DNA of 5,801 bases from Thermoplasmata archaeon (GTDB lineage: Archaea > Thermoplasmatota > Thermoplasmata > Thermoplasmatales > Thermoplasmataceae): contig JAJZZQ010000102.1 in assembly GCA_021797525.1 (NCBI GenBank), positions 1 to 5,801 on the forward strand, read 5' to 3'. A program made the translations under genes and the position numbers. A model generated the notes under the pieces. It saw only the letters and a list, made by a program, of their open reading frames with translations. It made no database searches and had not been told where the DNA came from. Of this stretch, positions 1,923 to 5,801 are shown piece after piece (positions within the stretch are counted from its first letter, which is position 1; each line of letters begins with the position of its first letter).

Positions 1923-2732
1923 TTATAAGATCGCTAAATAACCCCTATGCCATAATTCATCTCTAAAATGAACAAATGTAACTTTTCCCATTTTAACGAA
2001 ATGCTCTATTACTCCTGGAAGATCATCGGTAATAAGAGTGAAGTTTCCCTGGCAGAGAGTTATAGTATTGCTGTCGCTATCCACCAGCCTGATGAGCCTG
2101 TCATATGATTCTATAGAATTCATTATTCTTTACACGCCTCGAACCTCTTTCAGAGGTGGGTCATCCGGATGCATGGACAGTTTGACATTATTTTCTTCAG
2201 CAACAGGGATCACCTCTTCAAGGAACCATTTAAGTGATTTCCACAGGGTATCTGATGACACTTTTCCCAGTCTGGGAGGTGGATCCTGTTTCACATCATC
2301 ATAATTAAACGATGTTGTTAAGGCGTCCCCCCTTATTCTGACAGCTGTTCTTGTCCTCAGCCAGCCAACACCCGCCATCCAGTTGTAACACCAGATTCCG
2401 ATGCCAAGTTTTCCCATGTTTTCTACCATCTTAATTACGTTCTCAAGTTCCTCCTCCTTGCCTTCAATACCGTATTTTATACTGTCCATAGGCGGGTCAT
2501 CCTCAATGCATGCCAGGCTATAGCCGTAATCTGAAAGGAGGTCTCTGTATCTGGCCAGTGATGAATAGCTCCACGGTTCATCGGATGCCCCCTGCCTCCA
2601 GTCAAAAAATGTTCTGGGTAATGTACCCACTACTTCGTCTACTCCTACCTGCTTCAGCAGTTTCCATGAATCATCCGGGTTTGATTTTGTTATGATTTCT
2701 GCTATCCTGAGGTTTTGCACTGATAACACCAT
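1923..2732 (-). pseudogene. uxuA: Mannonate dehydratase-like gene (UxuA family), nonsense-interrupted and 3'-truncated
   Basis: An intact copy would encode a metal-dependent TIM-barrel enzyme like D-mannonate dehydratase, converting D-mannonate to 2-keto-3-deoxygluconate in hexuronate breakdown. From ATG at 2732 the frame gives 200 codons with WCYNWM (114-119), WLRT (124-127) and MHPDDPP (187-193), then meets TAA at 2132-2130. The same frame continues at once with RIMNS, LCQGNF (C227) and FVHFRD (253-258). The family pattern at this point is 'HPDDPP...G-x-x-R-I', so the stop replaces one residue without an indel. After FVHFRD (about position 1959) homology ends; eleven unrelated residues lead to TAA at 1925-1923. 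Three presumed metal ligands (H188, C227, H255) remain, but the C-terminal part with the fourth, an Asp, is absent. In relatives the protein should run roughly 50-100 residues further. It is most likely a pseudogene; the first 200 codons might still be translated as a fragment. The exact substrate of archaeal members is uncertain. Confidence 0.85.
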
Positions 2733-2854: not shown

Positions 2855-4060
2855 TTGTTTCAGAATCTGGGAAAATTAATTGAATCCCTTTACATAAAGG
2901 TAAACATGGAATCACTGGGAATTAGGGTCAATTCTGGAATATTCACAATTTCAGACGCAGACAGAAATGTTGTGAACTTCGACATGGAAGGTCGCCCGAT
3001 GTTTATTACACTGGACTCAAAAACTTACAGAAGGGGACTTAACAACAGACTTATTCAGATGTCCTGGAATGGTGAGGAGAGAATCATCGGAAATGTTGGG
3101 AAAGAAGAATCAGAACTGATACTGTCTAGAGCACTTTCATACCCAGGGAAAGTTGGCAGTCCAGAACAGGCATCGAATGAAATCTCTCTTGACAGATTGT
3201 CAGGCAGAAACATTGAATGGTTGAAACAGGACTCAGGCAGAATAAGTTCGCTATACAAGATTTATCCAATTCTTCCTCCAGATGCGTCGCATTCCATATA
3301 CTTCGAGGGTTCCTATGGGGCCAGGTGGAATCTTTCCACAGTGACATCCTCACATATATCCAGGGAAGTCCAGTTTAAGACTCAGGAGGATCTTAAGAAA
3401 CACGCCATTGACATTAAGGACAGAATCGGAGAGGGCATCAGGGCCAGAAAAGGGATATTCCTGGGGGATGCCAACATAATGAACATGGATCAGAAACTGC
3501 TGCTATGGCTGCTTGATCTTTTGAAGAGCAGTTTCTCTTTGCCTGTAATGGCCTCATTTGATATGTACACAACTCCAAAAAAGAAAAACATGATTCATTT
3601 CAGAGATATGAAGGATCATGGGCTTAACAGGGTAACAGTTTTCATAGAGTCGGGCAGTTATAAGGTTCTCCGTTTATTCAACGAACATACCAATGCCACT
3701 GAAACACTGAACCTTGTGAACAATCTCAAGGATTCGGGCTTGAATGTCACCATAGTGGCAATGATCGGCACCGGAGGCAAAGAGTATTCAAAAGACCATG
3801 AAGAGGGCACTTCCAATGTTATCTCCCAGATGCCGCTGGACTCACAGGATAAAGTCTATCTTGCGCCTATATTTGAGGACGACGATCCATGGTATGTTCA
3901 GATGGAATCATCCCGCGGGATAACAAGAATGACATATGCTGAAAAGATATCACAGATGTCCAACCTCTCATTGAAAATAAAGGAATCATTCAAAGGTATA
4001 AATGGGACTGCCTTTCCGGGCACACTTGCAAATTATGATTTAAGAGAACTGATCTACTGA
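2855..4060 (+). CDS. Radical SAM-fold protein lacking all cysteines (degenerate, function unknown)
   Basis: The 401-residue product keeps the barrel signature of radical SAM proteins: IYPILPPDASHSIYFEGSYG (136-155) before the expected cluster site, IFLGDAN (201-207) at the 'GGE' position, FIESGSYKVLRLFNEHTNA (263-281) matching the common 'G.ESGS..VL..INK..TA' block, LKDSGLNV (291-298), and MIGTGGKEYSKDHEE (303-317) matching 'G.GGKE.S..H'. Where relatives have GC..NxCxFC, this protein reads GARWNLSTVT (155-164). I found no cysteine anywhere in it, so the [4Fe-4S] cluster cannot be bound in the normal way. It may bind SAM for another purpose, or be structural. No membrane segment is evident. 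Start: TTG at 2855 has a TATA box at -27, but ATG at 2906 (residue 18) has AGGT four bases before it; the true start is open. The 3' end converges on pyrH with 20 bp between. The frame is intact, arguing for selection. Confidence 0.8.
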   Translation: MFQNLGKLIESLYIKVNMESLGIRVNSGIFTISDADRNVVNFDMEGRPMFITLDSKTYRRGLNNRLIQMSWNGEERIIGNVGKEESELILSRALSYPGKVGSPEQASNEISLDRLSGRNIEWLKQDSGRISSLYKIYPILPPDASHSIYFEGSYGARWNLSTVTSSHISREVQFKTQEDLKKHAIDIKDRIGEGIRARKGIFLGDANIMNMDQKLLLWLLDLLKSSFSLPVMASFDMYTTPKKKNMIHFRDMKDHGLNRVTVFIESGSYKVLRLFNEHTNATETLNLVNNLKDSGLNVTIVAMIGTGGKEYSKDHEEGTSNVISQMPLDSQDKVYLAPIFEDDDPWYVQMESSRGITRMTYAEKISQMSNLSLKIKESFKGINGTAFPGTLANYDLRELIY

Positions 4061-4080: not shown

Positions 4081-4761
4081 TCAGGAAATTACCGAACCCC
4101 CTTTCCCTGAACCGTCTATAATGTTCCGTATTAGGGCAGTATCTCTTCCATCAACGACGTGAACCTTTATCCTTGATCTCTTTGCAATATTCAGGGCTGT
4201 AAGATCCATAAAAACGTTAGGGCCGGCACCAACTGATTCTGAAATTGCTATTCTTATCGCAGAATCGTAATCAAGATTTTCCAGTTTTTTAGCTGAACTG
4301 TCTTTTCTGGGGTCAGCAGTATAAACGCCATCAACGGATGTCGCGTTTATCATGACACTTGCCCCTATTCTCTCCGCCAGAAGCATTGCAACGGTATCTG
4401 TGGTATGCCCCGGTTCTGTTCCACCCATCACCGTGAACCGGTATATCCTTGAGAGCTCAGCAGCGTCATTTACTGTTGTAGGTATCTTGCTGTTTGAATC
4501 ATTAAGGAACGAGGAAAGTGCAAGAGCATTCATTCTGGTGGCGTTTATCCCGATTTCATCAAGGATATTGTCATTGACTCCTGCATCTCTCAGTGCCCGA
4601 ATATAATTCCTGGCAAGCATTCCTCCACCTACAACAATTCCGAATTTAAGTTTCTCAGGGGACTCTGATAGAACAGAGGAAAAATCCTGAATGTATTTTA
4701 TGTTAAGGCTGTCAGTAGAAACGAGGGACCCACCTAAGGATATCACTATGGTTTTTTCCAT
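4081..4761 (-). CDS. pyrH: UMP kinase, archaeal type
   Basis: UMP kinase phosphorylates UMP to UDP with ATP in the cytoplasm, the step after de novo UMP synthesis. The 226-residue product has the amino acid kinase fold: the N-terminal phosphate loop SLGGSL (8-13), VVGGGMLAR (43-51), the nucleotide segment [11 protein letters not shown] (112-122), the ATP-site strand [15 protein letters not shown] (138-152) with a following basic stretch, and [17 protein letters not shown] (180-196) near the end. The length fits archaeal PyrH, which is a little shorter than the bacterial enzyme and acts as a hexamer. The ATG is well placed, as the family begins a few residues before the first glycine loop. No clear Shine-Dalgarno sequence precedes it. 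The gene is divergent from prf1 across 95 bp and convergent with the radical SAM-fold gene; all key residues are present, so it is very likely functional. Confidence 0.96.
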
Positions 4762-4856: not shown

Positions 4857-5801
4857 ATGTCTACCGATGATCTGCAGCTCAGGCGATACGAATTCAAAAG
4901 AGCCCTTCAGGAGCTTGAGCAGCTCAGAGGCAGAGGAACAGAGTTAATCTCCCTTTACATACCTCCGGATAAACAGATTCCAGATGTTGTGCAGTATCTG
5001 AGGGAGGAATTTTCAACTTCCTCTAACATAAAGTCAAAATCAACGAGAAAGAATGTTCTTGCAGCAATTGAATCCATTATGTCAAGGTTACGAGGTTACA
5101 GGTTCCCTCCGGAAACAGGTCTGGTTTTCTTTGTTGGCCATATCGCGACAAGGGGTGACCAGACAGAAATGTATGCCAAGATTATTGAGCCTCCGGAGCC
5201 AATACAGACATTCATGTATCAGTGTGATTCAACCTTCCATCTCGAGCAGCTTAAGCTTCAGATTGCCACTAAGGAATCATACGGGCTTATTGTGATTGAC
5301 AGAAAAGAGGCCACGATTGGTTTCCTGAATGGAACTAACATTTCTGTTGTAGCAAATGAACAGTCTCTTGTACCAAGCAAACACCATCAAGGGGGCCAGT
5401 CCTCTCGAAGGTATGAACGTCTTATTGAAATCGCTGCCCATGAATTCTTCAAAAAAGTGGGTGAGATTGCAAACAATGCATTCATTCCCGTTATAAAGGA
5501 TCTGAAAGCGGTATTCATAGGCGGCCCCGGGGCCACGAAGGAATACTTTTTCGAAAAGGACTATCTCAGAAATGAAATAAAATTCAAGGTAAAGGATCTC
5601 CTTGATATAGGTTATACAGATGAAACTGGCCTCAGGGAACTTGTTGAAAAAGCTTCTGAGACCATGAAAGAGATGCAGGTCGCACGTGAGAGGGACCTGA
5701 TAAACAGATTTCTCCTTGAGATAAAGAAGCCAGATGGAGGCCTTGGTATATACGGAGAGGTACCGATAAAATCTGCACTAGAGCTGAAGGCTGTAGATCT
5801 G
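4857..5801 (+). CDS. prf1: Peptide chain release factor aRF1 (3' partial)
   Basis: aRF1 recognises all three stop codons in the ribosomal A site and triggers release of the peptide; it works with aEF1A and ABCE1-type recycling in archaea. The frame is open from ATG 4857 to the window edge (315 codons of roughly 410-420). Domain 1 has [10 protein letters not shown] (29-38), the NIKS stop-codon motif (57-60) and the YxCxxxF motif as YQCDSTF (121-127). Domain 2 has GGQ (179-181), followed by SSRRYERL; Q181 is the residue that enters the peptidyl transferase centre. The residues just before it are HHQ, a slight variation on the usual H-basic-x. Domain 3 begins near residue 205, and [10 protein letters not shown] (222-231) is typical of it. 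The C-terminus lies outside the window. The ATG at 4853 is out of frame and quickly stopped, so 4857 is the start, supported by the TATA element at 4829-4836. Confidence 0.97.

Follow-up and report, generated by a model that had tools for sequence, protein, structure and literature searches.

What may a protein with the fold of radical S-adenosylmethionine (SAM) enzymes do once the residues that should hold its cluster are gone? The question is raised by a gene in a 5,801-nt stretch from a Thermoplasmata archaeon (contig JAJZZQ010000102.1 of assembly GCA_021797525.1); this whole stretch is called the window below, and the gene product the window protein. In the radical SAM superfamily, three cysteines hold the [4Fe-4S] cluster that cleaves SAM. 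We judge it moderately probable that the window protein is a cluster-free pseudoenzyme, a radical SAM barrel that neither holds a canonical [4Fe-4S] cluster nor cleaves SAM reductively and that is under strong selection for another job. Computation shows the predicted fold, the absence of every one of the three ligands and their repeated loss in the subfamily, purifying selection, and the retention of most other conserved residues.

A Predicted Radical SAM Barrel Without Cluster Ligands

An AlphaFold2 model of the protein (pLDDT 90.0, pTM 0.88) and its comparison with the PDB agree in predicting the partial (beta/alpha)6 barrel of radical SAM enzymes, the partial TIM barrel that the initial annotation had expected. 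Foldseek also returned a few unrelated barrels (beta-amylase, methylisocitrate lyase), which ranked under the radical SAM entries and were rejected. Among sequence profiles, PF04055 matched at 25.5 bits, below its gathering cut-off of 29.5, and TIGR04014 at 15.2 bits against an equivalog cut-off of 360. A family profile paired the ESGS block with the IESGS of PDB entry 9ccb; its match to the designed PPR protein 6een was discarded as a repeat artefact. A PDB sequence search with the single protein gave chance matches only. The lipoyl synthase LipS1/S2 was likewise dropped as a candidate, because nine family members match no lipoate family and because PMC10332631 groups LipS1/S2 in one cluster with biotin synthase.

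The loop GARWNLSTVT occupies the position of GCxWNxCTxC in relatives, with A139, S144 and T147 in place of the three cysteines; open reading frame (ORF), translation and alignments all bear out the original observation of a cysteine-free protein with this loop instead of the motif. The initial annotation had also taken the absence of cysteines from 401 residues as telling. The count is correct for the frame at 2855-4060 (+), but by itself it is weak evidence: cysteine-free ORFs are ordinary (35 of the 162 mechanical ORFs of 300-500 aa in the loci compared), the adjoining 226-aa pyrH likewise lacks cysteine, and the Poisson P for zero cysteines is ~0.10. The real signal is the lost motif, which is not due to chance because all three cysteines stand at the loop columns in 150 of 197 family sequences (near-duplicates included; 46 are broken and one is gapped). 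The same loop is read in P0002-P0005, of which P0002, P0003 and P0004 represent clusters with 21, 5 and 6 member sequences, and in the two MAG (metagenome-assembled genome) loci closest to the window, UBA447 (L001, 90% identity) and FK_Sedi_A_Bin.74 (L002, 82%); an assembly error is therefore an unlikely source. Throughout the clade around the window protein (hereafter the window clade), the three ligand positions read A/S/T or A/A/A; cysteine is absent from the proteins or occurs once or twice at other sites. Given the established role of these ligands in the superfamily, their loss excludes canonical cluster chemistry in this clade. W141 and N142 of the old loop are retained in all 34 sequences of a hand-picked subfamily set (18 broken, 16 intact) and also in the broken G007, P0046, G094a and G095a, which that set excludes.

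The protein probably starts at ATG 2906, not at TTG 2855, and would then have 384 residues. This ATG column is the exact start in 19 of 28 aligned homologues, and among the remainder P0002 alone resembles the window frame in the sequence of the longer start. AAAGGT lies directly 5' of the ATG, and the preceding 47 nt are identical at 41 positions across the window, L001 and L002, as against 197 of 384 third codon positions between the window and L002. These figures and the homologues' starts make 2859-2905 likelier to be leader than coding sequence. The leader is kept at the DNA level in all three loci despite a different upstream gene in L002.

Repeated Loss Within One Subfamily

Across 47 close homologues, GCxWNxCTxC is complete in 13 and incomplete in 34. 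The broken types are AST and AAA (window clade), TCS, VCS, ACS and SCS (middle cysteine kept, hereafter xCS), CTC and CSC (outer two kept, CxC), SCA and ATV, and SCF and SGF. Intact relatives extend down to 26% identity (P0047). Among 107 sequences added from the matches listed (the best 120 of at least 139, from 7997 candidates scored), P0079 alone is broken, and it falls within the CxC clade. In the sequences compared, breakage is thus confined to one Thermoplasmata subfamily, and those wider kin that bear bacterial names (Deinococcus and Limnochordales, for example) are intact. The earlier suggestion of an undescribed subfamily in acidophilic archaea fits this distribution, although the subfamily proved to be mixed, with some lineages keeping three cysteines and others having lost one, two or three.

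Trees were built after removal of fragments and near-duplicates; the 59- and 37-sequence sets were hand-picked, and G102, in which several genes are in pieces, is in no tree. In a 69-sequence tree from an alignment stripped of the loop columns, nine sequences make up the window clade, which has support of 100/100 and is sister (98/91) to the intact pair P0026/P0033. The cysteine loss is common to all nine, which answers the initial question of whether it is conserved within a clade. On both this tree and the 59-sequence tree, where the sister relation has support of 86/90, the window protein is nested within members that keep all three cysteines, as descent from motif-bearing members implies. 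Six changes are required on the 59-sequence tree; its bootstrap trees give five or six, and the starred branches alone no fewer than four. The 37-sequence tree, without the long-branch pair G094a/G095a, needs five; grouping all 15 broken sequences of the latter together is rejected (p-AU 7e-74). We read these changes as losses because the outgroup sequences have all three cysteines. Several observations weigh against a high count. The window and CxC clades are kept apart marginally (p 0.021) and P0010 may share one loss with the xCS clade (p-AU 0.096), both groupings having been chosen after tree inspection; moreover, G094a/G095a form a very long branch, and the three outgroup sequences of the 59-sequence tree do not lie on one side of a branch. 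By these trees, the separate losses would number four to six.

Selection and Residue Retention

The ratio of nonsynonymous to synonymous substitution (dN/dS, by NG86) is 0.085, 0.068 and 0.058 for the pairs among the window, L001 and L002, with dS of 0.7 to 2.0, the larger values being near saturation. Two xCS pairs gave 0.098 and 0.053 (dS was not computable for one xCS pair) and four intact pairs 0.085 to 0.196, while the neighbours are lower still (pyrH 0.026-0.037, aRF1 0.003-0.012); the frames used take in some codons 5' of the ATG. The frame is open in all nine sequences of the window clade. A dN/dS of 0.06-0.09 indicates purifying selection and no neutral evolution, and together with the nine-sequence clade it upholds the initial view of a re-purposed protein rather than recent decay.

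Retention over the 41 columns that are conserved in 85% or more of intact kin is 0.767 in the window clade and 0.764 in the intact near kin; broken sequences outside the window clade are lower in places (G095a 0.63, xCS 0.71). D219, G288 and G290 are retained in the window clade, and subfamily-specific positions (e.g., M229, Y252, N263, N269 and Q308) are invariant in the 18 broken and 16 intact sequences of the hand-picked set and unconserved outside the subfamily. E248 (window 3647-3649), which is E in 99% of intact kin, is Q in P0005-P0008, in xCS sequences, in G007/P0046 and in the intact pair P0026/P0033.

Taken together, the repeated losses, the purifying selection on the remaining barrel and the comparable conservation of broken and intact members suggest that the subfamily no longer depended on the cluster for its function. 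The function may have stopped needing radical chemistry before any cysteine was lost, and the cysteines, once dispensable, could then have disappeared lineage by lineage. Even the intact members may not use a cluster for the function under selection.

Genomic Neighborhood

The features of the window are collected in Table 1. In 15 of 43 neighborhoods compared (two of which are pieces of one gene), the family member directly follows a same-strand ABC-2 permease gene, and in all 15 genes for a DrrA-type ATPase and PadR come before the permease; these exporter families were named on L002 representatives. Six of the 15 family members are broken (L002, G085, G086, G087, G090, G095a) and nine are intact (among them G103, G104, G105 and G107). 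In 17 of the 43, pyrH is next downstream.

Because of this operon in relatives, the most likely job of the barrel would be ligand or partner binding in a PadR-regulated DrrAB-type ABC exporter module, which is a weaker inference. The old active-site pocket might hold either the substrate of the exporter or a small molecule, which could still be SAM or a nucleotide. We hold the complete scenario only tentatively: that the function ceased to depend on the cluster before the cysteines disappeared, that at least four Thermoplasmata lineages then dropped them separately, and that the barrel now senses a ligand or carries the substrate for an exporter under PadR control. More specific cluster-free roles, such as the SAM binding, RNA binding or scaffold named in the initial annotation, are guesses.

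In G001, the exporter lies on another contig, which ends 135 nt after the permease and has no match to the radical SAM region. The module appears to be split there with both parts persisting, unless the contigs were wrongly binned. The G001 permease (L085, end of C66) matches that of L002 (6799-7599) at 263 of 267 residues, a protein conservation unusually strict for such a permease. Recombination of the exporter into G001 was considered and dropped, as only 647 of 801 bases are identical and silent sites have diverged as elsewhere.

Table 1. Features of the window, with positions, strand and basis of assignment.
Feature	Positions	Strand	Basis
Cytochrome P450	643-1857	+	GTG start; best NCBIfam model Cyp119, 236.6 bits, below 680 cut-off
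Mannonate dehydratase (uxuA), broken	1923..2732	-	One in-frame stop; no match past residue 257 of the open 335-aa gene of L001
Conserved 5' leader, ribosome-site-like AAAGGT	2859..2905	+	41/47 nt identity in window, L001, L002
Cysteine-free radical SAM-fold protein	2906..4060	+	384 aa (ORF from TTG 2855, 401 aa); ORF translation, homologue alignment, leader
Former cluster loop GARWNLSTVT	3317..3346	+	Residues 138-147 of 384 aa (155-164 of 401-aa frame); alignments
FLGDAN, block after barrel strand 2, retained	3458..3475	+	G187 and D188 in all 34 hand-picked sequences, 18 broken
ESGS block after a barrel strand, retained	3647..3658	+	Alignment; family profile
UMP kinase pyrH; conserved neighbor	4081..4761	-	TIGR02076, 247.8 bits, cut-off 158.05
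aRF1, peptide chain release factor (truncated at the end of the window); conserved neighbor	4857..5801	+	TIGR03676, 443.1 bits, cut-off 234.7

The window has no Rfam match at gathering score and no tRNA. Its uxuA, decayed by the in-frame stop and a lost 3' end, adjoins the well-kept cysteine-less gene and occupies the place of the ABC exporter genes in L002 and others; L001 has an open uxuA in the same upstream place, and upstream of that an enolase-superfamily gene where the window has cytochrome P450. Intact copies more distant in the family have neighbors (TP_methylase, SpoIIM, prephenate dehydratase, an ATP-grasp protein) that vary by lineage and give no function. In both L044 and L046, a 4-base overlap of the intact member with the gene before it (TP_methylase type, as assigned from the L044 copy) suggests that the two are coupled in translation. 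In L049 (G102), the transporter, ABC ATPase and radical SAM gene are among several neighboring genes that appear to be in pieces, as from sequencing errors.

Weighing the Alternatives

A use of SAM without radical chemistry, in which the pocket binds SAM without a cluster for polar transfer or SAM-level sensing, is consistent with the GD of FLGDAN, D219, G288 and G290, all retained in the window clade. In this fold, however, the amino and carboxylate groups of SAM are anchored by the cluster itself. Given this anchoring, the Q at position 248 of several broken lineages and the substitution of A191 in most window-clade sequences, we regard such a use as unlikely. Nearly the same may be said of the idea that the protein is half of a two-protein enzyme, its barrel binding substrate or SAM while a partner supplies cluster and radical chemistry; we rank it slightly behind. 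Some pseudo-SAM proteins are thought to work paired with an active radical SAM protein, G094 and G095 each have one broken and one intact family copy, and in seven loci, five of them with a broken copy, a radical SAM gene, moaA (named on L002), is found within a few genes. Yet MoaA makes molybdenum cofactor, and the stretch compared around several broken copies, its neighbors annotated in part, has no moaA. In addition, eight of ten genomes with a broken copy have one family copy only (G001, G002, G006 and G007, searched at E 1e-3; G085, G086, G087 and G090, at 1e-8), G007 being titled a complete genome and the completeness of the others not being given. Where the initial annotation had left the choice between a cluster-free role and a partner that supplies the chemistry, these counts, read with that limit, favor the former.

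A retained iron-sulfur or other metal cofactor, with ligands other than cysteine or with the cysteines that some lineages still have, would accord with the xCS and CxC sequences, which keep their one or two cysteines at the same places. It fits poorly with the A/S/T or A/A/A of the window clade, and we consider it improbable. Least probable of all is a relic that has lost its function and decays slowly. The missing cysteines, a few eroded positions among the strictest and the truly broken uxuA upstream could be read in this way, but the open frames of the clade, the low dN/dS and the many fully retained subfamily-specific residues largely refute it here.

The preferred reading, a cluster-free pseudoenzyme with a likely place in an exporter module, has its own difficulties. 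Over the 20 strictest columns, those conserved in 95% or more of intact kin, retention is 0.80 in the window clade as against 0.93 in the intact near kin; A191 is replaced in six of seven window-clade sequences, Y150, E248 and S320 in four and D126 in three, and by these measures the pocket has drifted. Nor is the exporter link obligatory, since among 11 broken locus sequences the window, L001 and L006 have no adjoining exporter gene, and the intact G088 and G089 have none either. The broken L007 has its exporter gene three ORFs away, and the locus of L061 ends there. Finally, no family member with a known substrate was found.

Comparison With Known Systems

The window protein resembles the radical SAM superfamily (PF04055), including an uncurated CX4CX2C family labelled 'radical SAM protein' or 'YgiQ (UPF0313 family)', in predicted fold, descent and neighboring motifs, and differs from it in having no cluster ligands and a Pfam score under the cut-off. 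As an automatic annotation, 'radical SAM protein' is misleading for many of these genes. MgmA/Mmp10, the methyl-coenzyme M reductase glutamine C-methyltransferase (PDB 9ccb, TIGR04014), is a different protein at 13% identity and a score far below the 360-bit cut-off; by their titles, Mmp10 entries in the PDB carry a [4Fe-4S] cluster and cobalamin, unlike the window protein.

A radical SAM descendant without radical function is an already known kind. NCBIfam TIGR04347 (pseudo-SAM/SPASM protein, pseudo_SAM_Halo), which surfaced as a below-cut-off match of the MoaA neighbor, is likewise named as such a descendant without function; compared by name only, it belongs to another lineage and has a SPASM domain. 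Its model is not among the five NCBIfam matches of the window protein at E up to 10, a range in which HMMER filters drop most matches above ~0.1. In a search of open-licence papers, we recognized none on cysteine-less radical SAM proteins of this kind and met no case of separate, graded losses inside a single close subfamily.

The surprise is therefore the repeated loss of cysteines. Pseudoenzymes are usually met as end states, whereas this one archaeal subfamily comprises members with all, some or none of the cysteines, many of them sharing an operon, so that it becomes possible to test in what order events took place and what function is left. If our reading is true, the subfamily offers a natural series of intermediates, from all three cysteines through xCS and CxC to none, between an enzyme and a pseudoenzyme.
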